Shown here: in pieces, positions 1 to 31,075 of the stretch
Layout: every line of letters begins with the position of its first letter
Numbering within the stretch: the stretch's first letter is position 1
IMG/VR virus record: IMGVR_UViG_3300011999_000020
Location: 8,587-40,649 of that record
Strand: one strand, 5' to 3'
Source: a virus
DNA length: 32,063 nucleotides
The notes under the pieces: model-generated
What the model saw: only the letters and a program-made list of their open reading frames with translations
The model's database searches: none
Told to the model about the DNA's origin: nothing
Program-made: the position numbers and the translations under genes

Positions 1-148
1 AGTTTCTTACCAATCCCCCAGTTAGAAAACTTCCATTATAATAAAAGCCTTTTAGAAGCGTTGAATTAGGAAAATGTACTCTTGTTAGTTCTGCGGAAAC
101 TTTAGACACATATCCTATGAATTTTTCAGGATCAAAGTATGGAATCAT
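1..148 (-). CDS. HerA-like helicase, N-terminal fragment (partial)
   Basis: This is an open frame of 49 codons starting at the ATG at 148 and running off the left edge without a stop. It begins MIPYFDPEKF and continues with a beta-rich stretch (residues about 10-49, including IGYVSKVSAE and GSFLTGGLVRN). That stretch resembles the HAS-barrel domain that opens HerA-type hexameric helicases. The catalytic domain lies outside the window. The start overlaps the last 17 bases of the SIR2-family gene in another frame, which suggests translational coupling. HerA is the usual partner of SIR2 proteins in the SIR2-HerA anti-phage system, where the two form one complex. The open frame is directly visible. 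The HerA call rests on a short N-terminal match plus context, and another ATPase is possible. Confidence 0.55.
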   Translation of the reverse strand, partial: MIPYFDPEKFIGYVSKVSAELTRVHFPNSTLLKGFYYNGSFLTGGLVRN

Positions 149-1397
149 TGTCGTCTGTGTCTAGGATATCTTCCGGTTCGACGAATACCGGATCATTGAT
201 TCCAATAAGTGGATTTTTCCTATCTTCCTCGTTAGGAATTGATGGCATATTTTTTGCAAATGCATCAAAATCGCTAGAAATAAACATCAGGTTGCGAAGT
301 CCTTTTTCGAGTATCAATTTTTGAAATTCATCAAACTTTCCCTCTTGAGCTGCTGTTGGAGAAATCACAAATACCTGAAGATTCAGGTTCGCTATAACGG
401 CCTCTTTTACTATCCTATTTATATGCTCATCTCCAAAACCATAGCCAATGATGAACAGTACGGTATTCGTCTTTCTCAATGCACTTTGGAATCTTGAGAC
501 TAGCTCAAAAAACGGCATCTGATAGCTTTCTTTGAATTTGTCCTTATGTGGAAATATCATGATGGAATCCTTCTCATCCTCATTCCGCCTCTGTATTTTT
601 TCGCCCTTTAAATACCAGTTTGTTGATCCATGCAATTTATAGAGATGGAATAGTTTTGAGTAAAAATTGTCTTCAGTGTGAATTCTAGTTTTTTCTCTGT
701 GAACGATATCTAGATCGAATGTGATTTGAGAAAACGTGTTGTCATGAGAAAAATTGAACCCATCGACAACCACAGCTTCCACCTCGTTTGCAGCCTGCTC
801 AGTCAGGGTATCGTAATTAAGAGTAAATATTTTTACTCTCGAATGCGATTGCTTCCTGAGAAATATGTTTCTTAAGAATTTTGGATGCGGAAACTTTGAG
901 CTTAAGGTCAGTTTGCATTTCTCTTTGATAAATCCCTTTATATACGAAATCTGTCCGTCAATTGCAGTTACTTCAGTTACTTTATTATTTAAATGAAAAT
1001 GTGATGCCTCTGATTCAAGTCGTGAAAGTAGCTCCTCGAGATTTTTGTTCGCAGCTGTTATGAAAGCCTCATTTATTTTTTTAAATTCAGCATTGTCCTT
1101 TATTTCTTCCCACAAGTCTGCCATTGATTTACCTGATCCTGTTTCTGCTTTCCCGTCTTTATCTTTAATTAAAGATGACCCTGCCCCCATCAAAAAGCAT
1201 AGATTATCTGATGAAAAAATAGCCCTTTGGATTTGCGAGTTTATGTTTTTGTAGAGCACTGTTGGCACATCGACACCAGTACCAACATAGCCAGAATCAT
1301 CATTAAAGATCTCCCTGTCCTTAGAGTAAAATATCCTTCGTCTTGCTTTGACGGTTGGAGTTTCAACTGTATTTGATTCTGCCTTTTTCTTTGCCAT
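132..1397 (-). CDS. SIR2-family NAD-hydrolysing defence protein
   Basis: This 421-aa protein has a SIR2-like fold. The nucleotide-binding GAGSS motif is at residues 71-75, the FTLNYDT signature at 191-197, the LHGSTNW motif with the likely catalytic histidine at H256, and GYGFGDEHIN at 318-327. These features are typical of bacterial anti-phage SIR2 proteins, which degrade NAD+ on infection, rather than of protein deacetylases. The N-terminus is lysine-rich (MAKKKAESN). The gene starts 5 bases after the res stop and its end overlaps the start of the HerA-like gene, so all four genes probably share one transcript. The expected role is an abortive-infection effector acting with HerA. The family call is secure and the NADase activity is inferred from relatives. 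Confidence 0.88.
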   Translation of the reverse strand: MAKKKAESNTVETPTVKARRRIFYSKDREIFNDDSGYVGTGVDVPTVLYKNINSQIQRAIFSSDNLCFLMGAGSSLIKDKDGKAETGSGKSMADLWEEIKDNAEFKKINEAFITAANKNLEELLSRLESEASHFHLNNKVTEVTAIDGQISYIKGFIKEKCKLTLSSKFPHPKFLRNIFLRKQSHSRVKIFTLNYDTLTEQAANEVEAVVVDGFNFSHDNTFSQITFDLDIVHREKTRIHTEDNFYSKLFHLYKLHGSTNWYLKGEKIQRRNEDEKDSIMIFPHKDKFKESYQMPFFELVSRFQSALRKTNTVLFIIGYGFGDEHINRIVKEAVIANLNLQVFVISPTAAQEGKFDEFQKLILEKGLRNLMFISSDFDAFAKNMPSIPNEEDRKNPLIGINDPVFVEPEDILDTDDNDSIL

Positions 1398-1402
1398 ATA
1401 TT

Positions 1403-4294
1403 TTAATCGAATAAATTACTTTCCTTTTGGATTTTGGATCGTAATTTTGCGAATTCAAGCATGTCGACTACAGATGCATTTTTTGCCTTCCAGTCTTTGA
1501 AGAAGGCGTCACCAATAAGCACATACTCCCATTCCGCATTGCTACGCATCTCAGGTGGGAGTGCATTTACTCGAGTGATCCAATTAACGGCCGATACCTG
1601 CTTCTTTTGCACGTTTGGATGGCTGATCTGATCCTGTGCCTTGGTTTCAACAATGTAAATCTTTCCGTTGTTTGCTCGCACTAAGAAGTCAGGATAATAG
1701 AATGCCATCAATCCATCTTCTTTGAGATATCGAAAACGGACGAAATAATGCCTATCGACGAGTAATTTTACGAATGCTTCGACAGTGTTATCGGTATCAG
1801 CGTATTCCATAAAATCCTTTTCAAACTGACCCTTATTTGATGGATATCCTGTGCGTTCGTAGATTGTTTTCACCGCAGGGATTGAGTAATTTTCGCGCAT
1901 GCGAAGCTTGTCTACTTCAGATATGTTTCGATTGATCACTTGCGGCTCGCTGACTGTCTCAGTTTCCTGCATCTTTAGGATCGCGCGTGAAAGTTCTGCA
2001 ATGACATGATTTGTTACCACGTCGATCATAAGTACACGCCAGTTCTCATCTTCAAAAGGATCAACATCTTGATTGAATAGTTTGTGACGAATATATTCAT
2101 CAGTAAGTCCTGCAAGTTCAGGGAGTTTGATCTGAAGTGCTGGATATTTTGTTTGAGCTTTCAAATGTCGGCCGGAAACAGGTTCATGTAAAAGTGAAGA
2201 GACACGATTCACCAGTCGTGAGACAAATTCGTTATAGCTTGTGGCAGTCATTATTCCCCCTCCGATGCTGTAGTCACCAAAACGAGTACCCTTTGTCATT
2301 TCTTGAGAGATGAATTGCTCGCCCTTTGGGACCATCTTTTTCATGTTCGCAAATGGCATCAAGGTGAAAGCCCCCAGTTTTTCAATACTTAATTTTGAAT
2401 CTTTTATGATTTCTTCAGCTTCGCTCACGATCACAGGAAAGGCAAAATCATATTTAGCAAAGTCTGCCTTAAGTCCAACTGATATTATGTCACCTGTTAC
2501 GTCAGTGCCGCCATCAATGTCGTTATCGTCAGTACCTGCAAGTCCGTCCTGCATCAGCTCCTCATAGAACCCGACGAATGCAGGGTGTTCGATAATACTG
2601 AGTATGTCGAAATAGTTTTGTGGACTGGCTTTCTCTACAAGTAATCGTTTTCTGTTCTCTGCCTTGATATCGGCAAATTCAGGCTCACGCCACATCTGAC
2701 GGAGTCCTCGTCCGATAGTCTGTTCAAGCAAAATAGGAGCTTGAGACGATCGAAGTGGCACAATAACGCAGATATTGTTTACATCGAATCCCTCTCGAAG
2801 CATCAAAACTGAAATAACAATTTTAGGTGATTTGTGATTGTCGAGACGGAAGAGTTTCTTTTTTATTTCGATCCATTCATCCTTGCCAACGTCACCCATT
2901 TTGTTTGAGTGGATCTCAAGAACATCGTCTTGGTTGAGTCCTTCGCTCATAAAAAACTCAGTTACAAAAGGAACAACCTTTGTGTCCTCGCACACGATCA
3001 TCATTTTTGGGTATTTATTTTTTTCTTCAGAAATCTTCTCGAATTGGGTTTCAAGAATACGAAGCTTTTTGAGACCTGCTCGAAGCATCACACGCTGACC
3101 TTCGGAGAGACCAATAACTTTATTGCTTTCATCACGGACTGCCTTGAAATCGAGATCCATCGCAGCGAGCTCCTTTCGCTTATCAAGAACAAGTGTTTTC
3201 ACAAGACCTTTCTGGATCGCTGTTTTAAGATCAAAATCAACGATTATGTGTGGAAAATACACCTTTGTCTTTCCTACCTGATTGAAAGGTGTGGCTGAAA
3301 AGTCGATTTGAATAAACCCTTCACCTTTTGGCTCTGCAATTGCGGTGAGTGATTTCTGCCACTCTACTTCAGTCGCCTCACCTGCTTTTTTCATCTCATG
3401 AATATGGTGAGCTTCATCGTTGAAGGTCACTAGATTCGGAAGACTCTTTAGGTACTCTAGCTCCTTTCCCCTACCATATTGATTATCGAGAACATTAAGA
3501 CTATTTCCAGCAGACGTTCCTGGTCGTACTGGTAAAACTGAGCGTACGACTTGAGTTGGGTCAAGATCACCAGGTGAGTCAACCTCTTCTTCCGTCTCCT
3601 CTTCAACGCCTGCCAAGAGATGCCAGTTCGTAATAGCGACAAGTCCGTCGCCGACTACTTTTGTGCCAATTTCTTCTTTTTTTACCACTGATGATTTCAA
3701 AAAACCAAATATTTCATCACGATATGATTCAGGAATAAAAAGTTCTTGCATTTTAAACATATCGGATTTTTCAAAATCACGACCTTCGCCATCTTCTCTT
3801 TCTTTACCTACAAAAGCATCAAGTAGTCGTTCGTACACAATGAGTCCTGGTGCAACCACAAGAAAGTTTTTACTGTAGTTTCCTTTCTCGTGTTTTGCAT
3901 TAAGATACTGCCAAATAAGGAGAGCTTGCAAGACGAATGTCTTGCCCGTACCAGTTGCCATTTTTATGGCGTATTTTGGATGTGAATACTTTGACTTTGA
4001 AAGTTCAGCAAGACTGCCATCACCCTCAAGAAGTAGGTCAGGGGAGAAGTGTTGATATGCCTCGAAGATATTTTTTGACTTTATAACTTCGTGAATATAG
4101 ATCGCATTTAGAATTGCCTGTTTTTGCCCCACATGAAAATTGATCTGGCGAAGGTCATTATATCCATCAGCAAACCAATACTCGAGAAGTGCTTTAGTGG
4201 TGGGCGTTACTTTTTCTAGAAACTCACCAGAATCCCATGCGTTATTCGCCTGGTTCGTGATGTCTTTTGCGAATTGTAATGAGTTTCTTGCCAT
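1403..4294 (-). CDS. res: Type III restriction endonuclease, Res subunit
   Basis: This 963-aa protein is a full-length type III restriction subunit, which translocates or slides on DNA and cleaves when complexed with Mod. Visible motifs are Walker A GTGKT at 114-118, the DEAHH box at 293-297, SATPF (motif III) at 333-337, and a C-terminal helicase motif VI region (LLEQTIGRGLR). The PD-(D/E)xK nuclease sits near the end, with D869, E883 and K885 in PDF...ETKA. All catalytic positions appear intact. It starts 4 bases after the mod stop, the usual mod-res order. Its downstream neighbour is the SIR2 gene 5 bases on, making R-M and SIR2-HerA parts of one apparent operon. Confidence 0.93.
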   Translation of the reverse strand: MARNSLQFAKDITNQANNAWDSGEFLEKVTPTTKALLEYWFADGYNDLRQINFHVGQKQAILNAIYIHEVIKSKNIFEAYQHFSPDLLLEGDGSLAELSKSKYSHPKYAIKMATGTGKTFVLQALLIWQYLNAKHEKGNYSKNFLVVAPGLIVYERLLDAFVGKEREDGEGRDFEKSDMFKMQELFIPESYRDEIFGFLKSSVVKKEEIGTKVVGDGLVAITNWHLLAGVEEETEEEVDSPGDLDPTQVVRSVLPVRPGTSAGNSLNVLDNQYGRGKELEYLKSLPNLVTFNDEAHHIHEMKKAGEATEVEWQKSLTAIAEPKGEGFIQIDFSATPFNQVGKTKVYFPHIIVDFDLKTAIQKGLVKTLVLDKRKELAAMDLDFKAVRDESNKVIGLSEGQRVMLRAGLKKLRILETQFEKISEEKNKYPKMMIVCEDTKVVPFVTEFFMSEGLNQDDVLEIHSNKMGDVGKDEWIEIKKKLFRLDNHKSPKIVISVLMLREGFDVNNICVIVPLRSSQAPILLEQTIGRGLRQMWREPEFADIKAENRKRLLVEKASPQNYFDILSIIEHPAFVGFYEELMQDGLAGTDDNDIDGGTDVTGDIISVGLKADFAKYDFAFPVIVSEAEEIIKDSKLSIEKLGAFTLMPFANMKKMVPKGEQFISQEMTKGTRFGDYSIGGGIMTATSYNEFVSRLVNRVSSLLHEPVSGRHLKAQTKYPALQIKLPELAGLTDEYIRHKLFNQDVDPFEDENWRVLMIDVVTNHVIAELSRAILKMQETETVSEPQVINRNISEVDKLRMRENYSIPAVKTIYERTGYPSNKGQFEKDFMEYADTDNTVEAFVKLLVDRHYFVRFRYLKEDGLMAFYYPDFLVRANNGKIYIVETKAQDQISHPNVQKKQVSAVNWITRVNALPPEMRSNAEWEYVLIGDAFFKDWKAKNASVVDMLEFAKLRSKIQKESNLFD

Positions 4295-4298
4295 GGCA

Positions 4299-6317
4299 TT
4301 ATATTTCTTTTATAACCTCGCTCTCCCAACCAAAGACATCAACCGCCTTTACGCAAATTCTTCGTTTGCCATTTTTCTTTGGAACTTTAATAGAAGTTTT
4401 ATGAACCACACGAAGAGCATCTTTGTCATTTTCAGTATTTTGTCGGTAATCCTGCCAAATACTGCGAAATATTTCCCCATCAAAATCAGGGTCAATACTC
4501 CAGTATTCAATAAGATCAAGCGGACTCGTTGCAATAACTTGCTGAAGTTTCTCTTTACTTTTTTCATCGAGCGGAAGCGCGTCCGGTGATAGGAGCATGT
4601 AGTTGTCTAGCTCAATAGTAATTTCATCCTCTAACCCATCAATTGATTTCACCACTGGTGGTTTGATTGTAAGATATTGGAGTGTTGAGAATCGAACCTT
4701 GCCAGACTTCACTAGCTTTTCATAGTTAGCTTTACTTGAAAGTTTATCAAGGAGATCTGGCGGAATGACGAGTACCTCCAAGCTATCATCTTTTAAATTG
4801 TCGATAATTTGACCGATATCAGAAACGAAGTTCCATGCAAGTACTGTTACTTTATTCCATCCTCCAAGATGGGAGTCACGAAGTTGTTGTGCTTTTTGTA
4901 ATGTTGAAAGACCACAGAGCTTACTTGGTGAATCAACTAGTACAAGATTTTTACTTTGCGGAATATATCCAAGATTTTTGTTTGGATTATCCTCTATTGG
5001 AAACGGGACCGCACCGTATAGACCAAGAATTACTTGGGCAAGATCTCCAATTCTATATTTAGCTCCCATTGTTGACTGAAGTTGTTCTCGTTGATAGTCA
5101 CCAATTGACTGATACAAGAACGGTTTTGCTTCATGATCAATAAACCGTTTACGCATTACCATCGCAGCAGGCTTCCCTATATCAGAAATGATCCATTTGC
5201 GACCAAATTTTTCTGCTGTAGCAGCAGTTGTTCCTGAGCCTCCAAAGAAATCAGCCACAATAGAATTTTCGTTTGAAGCATGTTCCATAATACGCTGAAT
5301 CAAAGCTTCCGGCTTTTGCGTATCATAATTAACAATTTCTGAATGTCCTTTTTGACTTGGTTTATATGCACGAGGGTCAGCATATACTTGTTTTATATCA
5401 CTCCAAACAGTTGAAACAGGGACGCCCTTGCTCTCATCTAGATATTGCTTTTCCCAGTTTATATCTCCTTTCTCATCACGCCCACGCATTCGTCTTTGAT
5501 AACGACGACCATCATCATCTGTGAATTTAAACCAATCATCTATGTATTTTTGAGTATAAGGTAAATGAATTTTATTCTGAATTCTATCTTCATAGTTTTT
5601 CGAGTAGTGAAGTATGTATTCGTGAATTTTCACAAATTTCGCTCCAGCCGCTCTACCACCTGATGGTGATCCGTATGCCCATATGATTTCTTCAACAAAA
5701 TTTCCCTTACCAAATATTTCATCAAGGATGATTTTTACATAATGAGAAGTCTGCATTCCTATGTGAATGAATATATTTCCCTTTTCCGAGAGTAATTCTT
5801 TCATCAAAGCTAACCTCGGGTACATGTACTTCAAATAAGCTGCTGTGCCAGAGACTTTTTCACCATTTATTTCACTACTCCATGTGTCGGCATATGCGAA
5901 CTGTTCCACGACTGTAGGTCGTTGCTCGAGCTCTGCGCCCGGTATTTCTATTTTTGTTCGATAGTCTGCTTTTGAATCAAAAGGAGGGTCAATGTAAATC
6001 AAATCAATCTTCCCACGCATACTTGCAAGACCTGAATCAGAGTCTCCTGCAAGGAGGGCTTGAATCAGAAGGAGGTTGTCTCCGTAGACAAGACGGTTTT
6101 TCCATGTTTCTTCAGTCAGGTCTTGTTTTGCGACATCAAGTTGACCAAGTTTTTTTAGTTGGTCAAAAAGATCACGGTAATTTGAATCCTTAGAAGGGAT
6201 AACTAGCTCATTGGTTTGCAATGAGAGACGTGTGTTATCAGAAAGGCCTTCGAGAATACGGTTTACTTCTCGTCGACCCTCTGACACAACTTTTGGCAGC
6301 TGGTCGATAAGTGACAT
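4299..6317 (-). CDS. mod: Type III DNA methyltransferase, Mod subunit
   Basis: This 672-aa protein is the modification and recognition subunit, expected to methylate adenine N6 using S-adenosylmethionine. The catalytic DPPF motif is at 110-113, and the SAM-binding FFGGSGTT motif follows at 357-364. That order (motif IV before I) defines the beta class, typical of type III Mod. A YDTQKPEALI segment at 331-340 is also characteristic. The region between the motifs probably contains the target-recognition domain, and the C-terminal third should contact Res. It is the first gene of the leftward operon, followed by res after 4 bases. Its start lies 69 bases from the divergent NYN gene. The DNA target cannot be read from the sequence. 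Confidence 0.93.
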   Translation of the reverse strand: MSLIDQLPKVVSEGRREVNRILEGLSDNTRLSLQTNELVIPSKDSNYRDLFDQLKKLGQLDVAKQDLTEETWKNRLVYGDNLLLIQALLAGDSDSGLASMRGKIDLIYIDPPFDSKADYRTKIEIPGAELEQRPTVVEQFAYADTWSSEINGEKVSGTAAYLKYMYPRLALMKELLSEKGNIFIHIGMQTSHYVKIILDEIFGKGNFVEEIIWAYGSPSGGRAAGAKFVKIHEYILHYSKNYEDRIQNKIHLPYTQKYIDDWFKFTDDDGRRYQRRMRGRDEKGDINWEKQYLDESKGVPVSTVWSDIKQVYADPRAYKPSQKGHSEIVNYDTQKPEALIQRIMEHASNENSIVADFFGGSGTTAATAEKFGRKWIISDIGKPAAMVMRKRFIDHEAKPFLYQSIGDYQREQLQSTMGAKYRIGDLAQVILGLYGAVPFPIEDNPNKNLGYIPQSKNLVLVDSPSKLCGLSTLQKAQQLRDSHLGGWNKVTVLAWNFVSDIGQIIDNLKDDSLEVLVIPPDLLDKLSSKANYEKLVKSGKVRFSTLQYLTIKPPVVKSIDGLEDEITIELDNYMLLSPDALPLDEKSKEKLQQVIATSPLDLIEYWSIDPDFDGEIFRSIWQDYRQNTENDKDALRVVHKTSIKVPKKNGKRRICVKAVDVFGWESEVIKEI

Positions 6318-28741: not shown

Positions 28742-29623
28742 TTATTTGTTAACTGATAAGTTGATGCAAAATTGTTTTTTCAAGGCATCAATGCGTTTGA
28801 GCATCTCTCTGCTTTCTTCGGTTGGTGCGTGGTGGAATCTTTGTGAGAGCGAATCAAGGTCTTTCCAAAAACCTGAACCGTTGGTCATTTTGTCTACAAG
28901 TCCGTTGATGACTGTGGAAGACAAAAAAGTGCTTATGCTTGGTGATAGGTTTCTGAATTGGATTGATCCAAGGAAATAGAGGATGAGTTTTTCAAAGTCG
29001 CTTTCGCTTAGAATGTTTAGATCGATCACCCTTTTGAGGTTCTTTGCATCCGCTTTTGTGATCACGATCCTTAGCCCCCTTGTCTGGCGTGCTGTGTTAT
29101 GAAAATACTCGACGAGTTTTGAATGGAGACTCCTTACTTTTTTGAATGCAGTCTCTGACTGCGATTTACTTTGTTTCTCTTTGTTTCCTATGTTTTGTGT
29201 GTTCACCTGCTGAACTGGTTTCGGTATAGTAGCTGAACTACTTTTGGTATGATTCGCATACTGGTTCACTAGCTGAACTACTTTATCCACATCCATTTGA
29301 AGGTGAATTTGGTAGTAGTTTCCTTTCGAGGTTTCTCTCACTGCGATCACTTCAGCAAGGGCTAGATTCCTGAGACCTTTTGCCACAGATGCCCTTGCCA
29401 AGCCACAGCCGTAATCGAGAACCTTGCCGGACCGATCCTTTATTCCATCGATGAATTGAGAGAAACTGATACGATCCTCTCCTTTATGAAATCCGAATGT
29501 TCGTCGGCAGATATACAAAAGACACCGCCCTTCAGCTTCGGGCAGTCTGGGAATTACGAGGTCGAGAATCACGTTCGGGACCTGCGTGCTATTGGGAATT
29601 AGGTTTAATTTGTTTTCATCCAT
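28742..29623 (-). CDS. Replication initiation protein, winged-helix (O-like)
   Basis: This 293-aa protein starts at ATG 29623 (MDENKLN), preferred to 29647 because the upstream eight residues would put the start inside the hairpin at 29636-29674. Residues about 10-90 match the N-terminal winged-helix of phage replication proteins (VPNVILDLVIPRLPEAEGRCLLYICRRTFGF, then GCGLARASVAKGLRNL). A Ser/Gln/Lys-rich linker follows, then a helical C-terminal half that may bind a helicase or helicase loader. Such proteins bind the phage origin, which is often inside or next to the gene. The adjacent structured island could be that origin. Confidence 0.8.
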   Translation of the reverse strand: MDENKLNLIPNSTQVPNVILDLVIPRLPEAEGRCLLYICRRTFGFHKGEDRISFSQFIDGIKDRSGKVLDYGCGLARASVAKGLRNLALAEVIAVRETSKGNYYQIHLQMDVDKVVQLVNQYANHTKSSSATIPKPVQQVNTQNIGNKEKQSKSQSETAFKKVRSLHSKLVEYFHNTARQTRGLRIVITKADAKNLKRVIDLNILSESDFEKLILYFLGSIQFRNLSPSISTFLSSTVINGLVDKMTNGSGFWKDLDSLSQRFHHAPTEESREMLKRIDALKKQFCINLSVNK

Positions 29624-29628
29624 AAGTT

Positions 29629-29712
29629 TTATGAAGAGAGAAAGCATCGATAAGCCCTATCGATGTTTTCTCTCATTGGTTTGTAAGACTGGCGAGGATT
29701 TACACCTCGCAT
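29629..29712 (-). CDS. Possible 27-aa leader ORF before the replication gene
   Basis: A 27-codon frame (begins MRGVNPRQSYKPM, ends CFLSS) stops 5 bases before the replication-protein ATG. Its last third is encoded inside the strong hairpin at 29636-29674, so ribosomes translating it would melt the stem. It could act as a leader peptide coupling translation. It also overlaps the T-arm part of the tRNA-like sequence, and both cannot be primary functions. Only position supports it. Confidence 0.28.
   Translation of the reverse strand: MRGVNPRQSYKPMRENIDRAYRCFLSS
29636..29674. repeat. Long inverted repeat just upstream of the replication gene
   Basis: Arms of 17 bases enclose a 5-base loop (AGCCC on the plus strand): GAGAGAAAGCATCGATA pairs with TATCGATGTTTTCTCTC. 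All positions pair on the plus strand if one G-T wobble is allowed, while the minus strand has one A-C mismatch. It ends 12 bases before the replication ATG. It could be an operator, an attenuator, a terminator for plus-strand RNA or part of a replication origin. Confidence 0.8.
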
Positions 29713-29812
29713 GACAGCATTTATTTCTCGACCTGCGAGGTAGCTGTCTTACGTGTAGTCCGATGGACTTTCACGCGTGCCATAAGCGTCTACTTATTCC
29801 GCCACAGACTTA
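29684..29812 (-). ncRNA. tRNA-Leu-like structured RNA with oversized arms
   Basis: On the minus strand an 8-bp acceptor-like pairing (TAAGTCTG with CAGTCTTA, one T-T mismatch) closes a 129-base unit. It contains TGGCGGAATAAGTAGACGC, which matches 17 of 19 bases of the D-arm of bacterial tRNA-Leu, and a T-arm-like CGAGG-TGTAAAT-CCTCG. Between them a CTTATG/CGTAAG stem bears a 27-base loop and a GACAGC/GCTGTC arm has a long loop. A normal 7-base anticodon loop is not found, and the unit is about 40 bases longer than tRNA-Leu. It may be a decayed, intron-bearing or mimic tRNA. TGCGAGGT can also pair upstream with ACCTCGCA, giving an alternative fold. Confidence 0.38.
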
Positions 29813-29813
29813 C

Positions 29814-29884
29814 TCGGGGACTACGCCCCCGATTTCAGCCCTCGTGCCACTGCGACCAGGGCTGAATCAGTGGCTTAGTTTTTT
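29814..29884. ncRNA. Hairpin plus candidate H-type pseudoknot
   Basis: A TCGGGG/CCCCGA hairpin (29814-29832) is followed by two interleaved perfect stems: TTCAGCCCT (29834-29842) with AGGGCTGAA (29858-29866), and GCCACTG (29846-29852) with CAGTGGC (29868-29874). Their order (first 5', second 5', first 3', second 3') and 1-5 base linkers are those of a compact H-type pseudoknot. On the plus strand TTAGTTTTTTC follows, resembling a terminator. On the minus strand the element directly follows the stop codon of the ATPase gene. Confidence 0.55.
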
Positions 29885-31075
29885 CTACTTACCACTTTTT
29901 ACTGCAGCCTTGGCGGCGGACCGCTTTGGTTTGTCTTCAGTCTTTGAATCTCGAAGATCTTTCTCAAACTTCTGTGTAGAAGTGAGCTCAGGAGGAAGTT
30001 CGTTTTTTAATTCAGCGATCTTCTTTTGAGCAAATTCCTGAATGCGAGCGTATCCGTCCTCGAGGACATCTGGTCTCATCGCTTCGATAGCAGACCAACT
30101 TCGAGTTTGGAAGGCATACTCAAGTGCATCAGTTTTGTTTTTCTTTTCCTGTGCGCCAGTGCTTGGCCAGATCGATACGAGGTAACCCTCGATTTCTTCA
30201 AGCCATCGCTTTCTTTCGAGTACCCACTTACGCTTGTCTTCTTCTGTTTTGATTAACTCGCCGGCATCTCGCTCTACCGGACTAAATCGTGCAGAGACAG
30301 GGTCTTTGATGATTGCTTCAATTGCAGGTGCAAAGTCTTCATATGTCGGATTCTTGAAGACCTTTCCATCTAGGAGATTGCCTCGTCCTTTGAGGACAGT
30401 AGCTTGTCTCCATACCTCACGCTTCTTGCGTTCGATGAGTTCGTGTCGCTCCATGAGTACCAAGACATCGAATTCGTATGCGGCGTTTTTCTCGGCCTGC
30501 ATCTTTACTCCGGTCTTGGTAAATTCCTTGCGACCATCCTCATCTATTTCTTGCTCCATTCGATCCGACACACGACCAGTGGCGATAATGTGTAGTGGTG
30601 ATTGAACCATCGGGATCGAGAAGTATTTATTCCATTCAGACTTGATTGCCATCCAGTCTTGAATTTGGAATGTTTGACGATTAAGCTTGCGCTTGTACGC
30701 CTCTTGGAAATCCATCCAGATATGTGTGATGCTATCGAGCACCATAATGTCTGAATATCCTTCCGAGCAGAGCTTCATTGCTGTTACCAAATCAGCGAGT
30801 GAGTGTGTCTCACGCACCATCGCTTCGATTCCATTCTCTTTGAAGAGCGGGACCAAAAACTTTGATGCTTTCTCTGTATCGATAAGGACAATGGGCTTCT
30901 TACTGCCGATCTTCTTGTGAAGACCGATTGCTACTAATGCGGCGCTCCAACTTTTACCAGTTCCCGGTTCTCCTTCAAATGCCGCTTTGAAGTAGGGCTT
31001 GGTGTTGCCGATCGCTGTGAAGAAGTTTTCTTCTTTTGTTGCGACCGGAACTTGACTTCGTTCTAGTGTTTGCAT
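29885..31075 (-). CDS. RecA/Sak4-type P-loop ATPase
   Basis: This 396-aa protein has Walker A GEPGTGKS at 35-42, a conserved IDTEKA strand at 65-70, and Walker B DIMVLDSI at 109-116, an arrangement seen in phage AAA_24/Sak4-like RecA-fold ATPases. These assist single-strand annealing or replication on phage DNA. The second half is helical and charged, with a Lys/Ala-rich tail (KRSAAKAAVKSGK). Its place before the replication and RusA genes supports a recombination or replication role. It is preceded by a 75-base gap holding a plus-strand promoter-like unit, and its own promoter is not evident. Confidence 0.82.
   Translation of the reverse strand: MQTLERSQVPVATKEENFFTAIGNTKPYFKAAFEGEPGTGKSWSAALVAIGLHKKIGSKKPIVLIDTEKASKFLVPLFKENGIEAMVRETHSLADLVTAMKLCSEGYSDIMVLDSITHIWMDFQEAYKRKLNRQTFQIQDWMAIKSEWNKYFSIPMVQSPLHIIATGRVSDRMEQEIDEDGRKEFTKTGVKMQAEKNAAYEFDVLVLMERHELIERKKREVWRQATVLKGRGNLLDGKVFKNPTYEDFAPAIEAIIKDPVSARFSPVERDAGELIKTEEDKRKWVLERKRWLEEIEGYLVSIWPSTGAQEKKNKTDALEYAFQTRSWSAIEAMRPDVLEDGYARIQEFAQKKIAELKNELPPELTSTQKFEKDLRDSKTEDKPKRSAAKAAVKSGK

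Follow-up and report, generated by a model that had tools for sequence, protein, structure and literature searches.

A tRNA-like RNA without an anticodon arm, carrying exchangeable structured inserts, appears to be conserved across hundreds of phages

What occupies the long gap between the gene for an AAA_24 ATPase and that for an O-like replication initiator in a virus genome? The window analysed here, 32,063 nucleotides long, spans positions 8587-40649 of the virus record IMGVR_UViG_3300011999_000020 (40,649 bases in all), and all of the genes near this gap lie on the minus strand. A preliminary description, made from the sequence alone, had singled out the gap as a structured island and offered a regulatory RNA, a tRNA mimic or the phage origin as explanations. 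Every element that it named is present, including a 17-bp-arm hairpin whose arms are 94% complementary, a GC hairpin, two interleaved perfect stems that form a pseudoknot and a tRNA-Leu-like unit, and the island as a whole folds 6-7 SD better than dinucleotide shuffles on either strand. The island is a four-part mosaic in the orientation of the minus-strand genes; its parts run 5' to 3' as the pseudoknot PK1, the GC hairpin, the tRNA-like unit and the palindrome (Table 1). Relatives of the locus were found through the ATPase; the downstream O-like protein, used as a query, gave no confirmed relatives in viral contigs. Contig L058, which was binned as Patescibacteria, has a near-identical island, and related islands occur in L055, a Nomurabacteria MAG, and in L057, an uncultured bin. 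These assignments suggest that the host may be a Patescibacterium, although viral contigs are not binned reliably. At the left end of the window (132-6317), two long genes like a type III restriction helicase and methylase adjoin a SIR2-like gene, as judged by eye from the translations.

Table 1. Features of the island and its two flanking genes, in coordinates of the window.
Feature	Position	Strand	Remarks
AAA_24 ATPase gene, upstream of island	29885..31075	-	Pfam PF13479, PHROG 1366
H-type pseudoknot PK1	29834..29874	-	all cells (100%) paired across 12 relatives; both sides changed in two pairs
PK1 stem 1	GCCACTG 29868-29874 / CAGTGGC 29846-29852	-	perfect
PK1 stem 2, interleaved	TTCAGCCCT 29858-29866 / AGGGCTGAA 29834-29842	-	perfect
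GC hairpin CGGGGGCGTAGTCCCCG	29815..29831	-	kept in relatives with length and sequence changes
tRNA-like RNA, whole unit, 127 nt	29685..29811	-	CM R1 match, 64.5 bits, E 3.6e-14, the window being one of the 45 training rows
Extended terminal stem, 9 bp, one U-U mismatch	reaches 29683-29813	-	from the sequence
Acceptor stem 5' strand AAGTCTG	29805..29811	-	pairs with CAGTCTT, 29685-29691
D-arm GCGGAATAAGTAGACGC, 3-bp stem and 11-nt loop, preceded by U8 G9	29786..29802	-	near invariant in 45 aligned relatives
Linker replacing the anticodon arm	29749..29785	-	includes hairpin 29752-29775 (CGTGAAAGTCCATCGGACTACACG)
Insert at the variable-arm position	29713..29748	-	closing stem GACAGC (29743-29748) / GCTGTC (29713-29718)
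A47-U48	29711..29712	-	U48 faces A15 (Levitt pair position); U in 373/375 matches listed
T-arm GCGAGG-TGTAAAT-CCTCGC, 6 bp, loop UGUAAAU	29692..29710	-	4/6 pairs change on both sides
17-bp palindromic hairpin, ATCGAT core	29636..29674	-	arms 29636-29652 / 29658-29674; just upstream of rep gene start
Replication initiation protein O-like gene, downstream	28742..29629	-	PHROGs 18020/678; Pfam Phage_rep_O just under cut-off

The tRNA-like unit combines familiar and unfamiliar parts. Its acceptor stem forms 6 of 7 pairs, with one U-U mismatch, and is kept in relatives. The D-arm (GGCGGAAUAAGUAGACGC) is of the tRNA-Leu type and fits the family D-arm GGCGGAAUARGUAGACGC, while the T-arm follows the pattern GG-UGYAAAU-CC, the loop of which is nearly invariant across the family described below. 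An anticodon arm with a leucine anticodon is absent from the unit in the window, and the linker that replaces it holds a hairpin that is changed on both sides in L055 (CGTA..TACG) and missing from L005 and L006. The insert loop contains a further hairpin, CTCG-CAGGT-CGAG, and the closing stem of the insert, which reads GACAAC/GTTGTC in L055, is followed by AU and so ends at U48. A73 is present and CCA is not encoded; the latter could be added post-transcriptionally. No promoter-like site of its own was found at the unit in the window.

This is not a real tRNA or tmRNA. The preliminary description had proposed ARAGORN and Rfam among its checks, and both were negative: in the window ARAGORN called neither a tRNA nor a tmRNA, and Rfam gave no match, not even to RF00005 tRNA (gathering score 29), at E 10. 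The idea of a regulatory RNA or tRNA mimic was right in kind, as the unit belongs to a conserved tRNA-Leu-like RNA, which is no tRNA and is not confined to one phage. A competing pairing of CCTCGCA with TGCGAGG, also proposed there, does exist as sequence; the relatives favour the T-stem, which in L055 has changed in a compensatory manner (GTGAGG/CCTCAC) while the other CCTCGC is unchanged.

Searching viral contigs with the 20-base D-arm gave 39 loci, nearly all of them with the same downstream T-arm, and scans with gapped patterns extended this to at least 375 distinct elements in at least 265 insert groups. Phages that carry the unit include SPP1 (between genes 9 and 11), phi3T (beside yonN), D6E, KLEB27-1, VEsP-1, LP65, Ln-9, Grass, EFDG1, Goe3, Listeria LP-101, Paenibacillus API480 and Brochothrix BtpYZU02, and it also occurs on Patescibacteria-binned contigs. 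The consensus consists of a 7-bp acceptor, U8 G9, the D-arm GCGGAAUARGUAGACGC, an insert that ranges from 36 to more than 200 nt, A47-U48, a T-arm whose 6-bp stem bears the loop UGYAAAU, and finally the acceptor 3' strand. A strict pattern applied to whole genomes was matched in 18 of 301 from the family to which a Lactobacillus MAG belongs and in 1 of 261 from that of Lysinibacillus, and the reversed control pattern had zero matches in the same genomes; such sparse matches suggest an accessory, prophage-type element rather than a host gene. ARAGORN calls overlap only 1 of the 375 matches listed, and Rfam has no family that corresponds to the unit. The literature searched, which took in no preprints and few subscription journals, gives no account of it. 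The family is thus apparently new and undescribed, though only provisionally so.

Evidence that the fold is under selection comes from several directions. Most rows of the 45-sequence alignment were selected for complete stems, so the fair test of the acceptor is a set of 356 hits picked by their D and T cores alone, without regard to pairing: 286 of these pair at 7/7 positions, as against 3% with shuffled partners. Within the alignment, for which that selection must be kept in mind, all seven acceptor pairs and four T-stem pairs change on both sides, as do the D-stem pair 11-25 (in two relatives) and the elbow pair 19-56, and the covariation score of 0.658 (against 0.166; 0/500 shuffles) collapses when the partners are slid. 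The elbow, where the D-loop meets the T-loop, is especially informative. Among the 375 matches listed, pair 19-56 is G-C in 327 and A-U in 30, the other 18 being mixed or mismatched (11 G-T, 6 A-C and 1 A-A), a covariation with a Fisher p of 3e-29. In D6E the elbow takes the canonical GG/UUC form, with G18/U55 instead of the A18/G55 of the others. G-U pairs outnumber A-C pairs (157 vs 37), and selection therefore acts on the RNA of this strand. The preliminary description had named relatives with neither compensatory change nor conserved stems as evidence against a structured island, and the outcome is clearly the opposite. At the level of sequence comparison, the unit can be described as a conserved tRNA-like fold without an anticodon and with exchangeable structured inserts, in which acceptor, D-arm, T-arm and D-loop/T-loop elbow are evidently maintained by compensatory change.

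The insert is where members of the family differ. A stem of at least 5 pairs whose 3' strand ends two bases before the T-stem is found in 61.6% of elements vs 17.9% when shuffled, and the signal is gone at offsets of 5 or more. Because this closing stem sits at the variable-arm position of class II (Leu/Ser) tRNAs, the insert can be understood as an expanded variable arm in a molecule whose anticodon arm is missing. The same acceptor sequence occurs with up to 19 different inserts, and a single phage may carry several copies with different ones. Among the matches listed, a canonical tRNA T-arm occurs in 10 of 265 inserts, where 0.35 would be expected, and the variable arm of two elements (L350 and L391) encloses an almost entire canonical tRNA, pointing to recombination with tRNA genes. 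Inserts can also be shared by unrelated phages of one host whose flanks differ, with two examples only: the SPP1 insert, common to Nitunavirus Grass and its relatives, and the phi3T insert, common to Goe3-type phages. Beyond occasional tRNA T-arm pieces, no motif is common to all inserts. Two further candidate features did not hold for the family. A small stem resembling an anticodon stem, considered as a conserved element downstream of the D-arm, occurs in 22% vs 18% of shuffles, and a pseudoknot between linker and insert loop, while true for some members (L193, L321 and L232), is barely above shuffles as a family rule (20% with p<=0.05, median p 0.35).

Genomic context is equally varied. A tRNA gene lies within 1.5 kb of 93 of the 375 matches listed, compared with 61 for random positions in the same loci, and some copies sit inside tRNA clusters. 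Neighbouring genes range from RinA/ArpU-type regulators and HNH genes to head, recombination, replication and polymerase genes, a diversity that makes a fixed cis target unlikely and argues for action in trans. Boxes resembling a -10 element are enriched, with a peak just before the 5' end of the unit, and terminator-like sites follow it in 29 of 251 cases vs 6 of 231 random positions. Most elements have no obvious dedicated promoter or terminator.

Other RNA features were seen in the same phages and in further records. In SPP1, a 44-nt mini tRNA-like element made only of an acceptor stem and a canonical T-arm lies directly 3' of the unit (L059, ~1605-1680). Between two tRNA genes of Felix O1 (L447, ~570-630) there is a mini acceptor and T-arm element with the loop UGCAAGU, and the match to its T-arm recurs in many Felixounavirus records. 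Enterococcus phage EFDG1 has a strong unannotated tmRNA match of 140.6 bits directly before its tRNA-like unit (L067:1145-1495), and phi3T has a DUF3800-VIII RNA match ~1.3 kb from its unit (L060:2864-2929). One locus holds a tRNA-Leu(UAA)-like gene (L327:4289-4420) and a second tRNA gene (L327:3003-3120), in both of which the anticodon loop has an insert of ~45-50 nt; the two genes attain the Rfam tRNA score with no ARAGORN call, and the inserts are possibly mini-introns, or the genes payload-bearing tRNAs.

How does the unit compare with known RNAs? With bacterial tRNA-Leu (class II) it shares the D-arm sequence, U8, A14, A15/U48 and the position of the long variable arm; it differs in having no anticodon arm, a 13-bp stack of acceptor and T stems (7+6), a UGYAAAU T-loop with G55, no CCA, a free discriminator and its large insert. 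tmRNA (RF00023) likewise has tRNA-like ends, no anticodon and a pseudoknot-rich middle. However, the unit possesses a D-stem, which is Leu-like, there is no Rfam or ARAGORN tmRNA call in the window, and the alanine identity pair G3-U70 of tmRNA is not in the majority, with G-U at acceptor pair 3 in 5 of the 375 matches listed. Plant-virus tRNA-like structures are also viral RNAs that mimic acceptor, T-arm and elbow, but they form the 3' ends of RNA genomes, whereas the unit is free-standing in DNA phages and has no Rfam match. Engineered 'tRNA scaffold' RNAs enclose a payload in a tRNA frame to give it correct ends and make it stable; the unit is natural, its payload would sit at the variable arm, and the anticodon arm is deleted. 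The closest known things are RNA C (species 1 RNA) and RNA D of phage T4. RNA C is a small stable phage RNA that adjoins tRNA genes and combines a tRNA-like acceptor and T-arm (CCGGGTTCGAATCCCGG with GAAACG/CGTTTC) with a non-tRNA middle. It differs in its canonical TTC T-loop, lacks the family D-arm GGCGGAAUARGUAGACGC and is not known to be modular, and a homologous relationship was rejected because the T4 locus (L052) contains nothing that model R1 matches. The roles of RNA C and RNA D are unknown (PMC3014915, PMC9697503).

From a structure established by comparison, we infer a function. On balance, the unit is probably a phage RNA that acts in trans, in which a tRNA chassis of class II (leucine type) bears an exchangeable, host-adapted payload. 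In the window it would be co-transcribed with the operon, and elsewhere it may sometimes be transcribed from its own promoter. Host tRNA-maturation enzymes (RNase P and RNase Z) would then read the acceptor, T-arm and elbow and cut out a stable RNA. The tRNA-like ends are the reason to assume this step, which the U-U mismatch in the window acceptor may weaken. Without an anticodon this RNA could not decode. It would instead act in trans: the frame would be the chassis, ensuring processing and stability, and the insert the payload, most likely aimed at a factor of the host, for instance one of defence or regulation.

Care must be taken to weigh this against other explanations, one of which is a cis element of the ATPase-rep operon, either an attenuator or a translation control of the rep gene. 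The unit lies between both genes together with the conserved PK1, GC hairpin and palindrome, and within window positions 29834-29895 an AGTGGC at the ATPase stop codon can pair with the PK1 5' strand; this alternative to the pseudoknot is possible in nearly all 12 relatives, shows no covariation and hints at a switch. However, PK1, the GC hairpin and the palindrome (altered yet still palindromic) are retained in L002-L009 and L012, while at this locus the unit is present in L005, L006, L055 and L057, missing from L002-L004, L008, L009 and L012, and reduced to an acceptor-stem remnant in L007. Seven relatives with both genes, PK1 and the palindrome are thus without an intact unit, and in other phages it adjoins unrelated genes, so that a cis role for it is quite improbable; cis control likely applies to PK1 and the palindrome, not to the tRNA-like unit. 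The phage origin of the preliminary description would be favoured by the adjoining O-like gene and the conserved palindrome before it; the palindrome could itself act as an operator of rep or as part of an origin. GC skew shows no turn in support of an origin here, the unit occupies many genomic positions that differ between phages and is missing or reduced in the relatives just mentioned, and the excess of G-U over A-C pairs is explained only by selection on RNA, which leaves a DNA-level replication origin with scarcely any credit.

A degenerate tRNA-Leu pseudogene, or a tRNA-Leu with a spliced intron, would account for a D-arm that is clearly of the tRNA-Leu type and for the 35-43 bits that genuine tRNA-Leu genes reach under model R1. 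This reading is already contradicted and highly implausible: strong compensatory change in stems and elbow signifies selection, not decay, excision of the insert would leave no anticodon arm, and Rfam gave no group I or II intron match, hence no sign of a group I intron core. Alternatively, the frame itself may be active, as a decoy occupying an enzyme that reads the tRNA acceptor, T-arm or elbow (LeuRS, the CCA-adding enzyme, EF-Tu, RNase P or a tRNA-end-modifying defence toxin), the insert then being no more than a modulator. The invariant parts are indeed the elbow and T-loop, some copies lie within tRNA clusters, and LeuRS works without anticodon recognition, such that an anticodon-less unit could conceivably be charged by it. 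Yet among the matches listed the discriminator A that LeuRS needs is found in 193 of 375 and an encoded CCA end in 3 of 375, G55 replaces U55, the acceptor sequence is free, and 265 kinds of large insert would be superfluous for a pure decoy. General leucine charging is unlikely because discriminator and CCA are not conserved, and we regard the decoy as a minority reading that deserves some weight.

The trans-acting chassis can be taken one step further, in a more tentative proposal that we consider possible without expecting it: the stripped leucine-tRNA frame may be a general chassis, defining an RNA class that delivers payloads which pass between unrelated phages with a host in common and serve in counter-defence or takeover. 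If true, its logic would be comparable to that of cassette systems, but in RNA. The tertiary covariation indicates that a tRNA-like fold is selected without any decoding role, and the exchangeable inserts suggest a fast-evolving RNA interface with the host. Standard annotation has missed a conserved RNA that hundreds of phages carry, among them SPP1 and phi3T, two B. subtilis phages used as laboratory models. Because both are convenient to handle, the purpose of tRNA-like phage RNAs such as T4 RNA C becomes directly testable.
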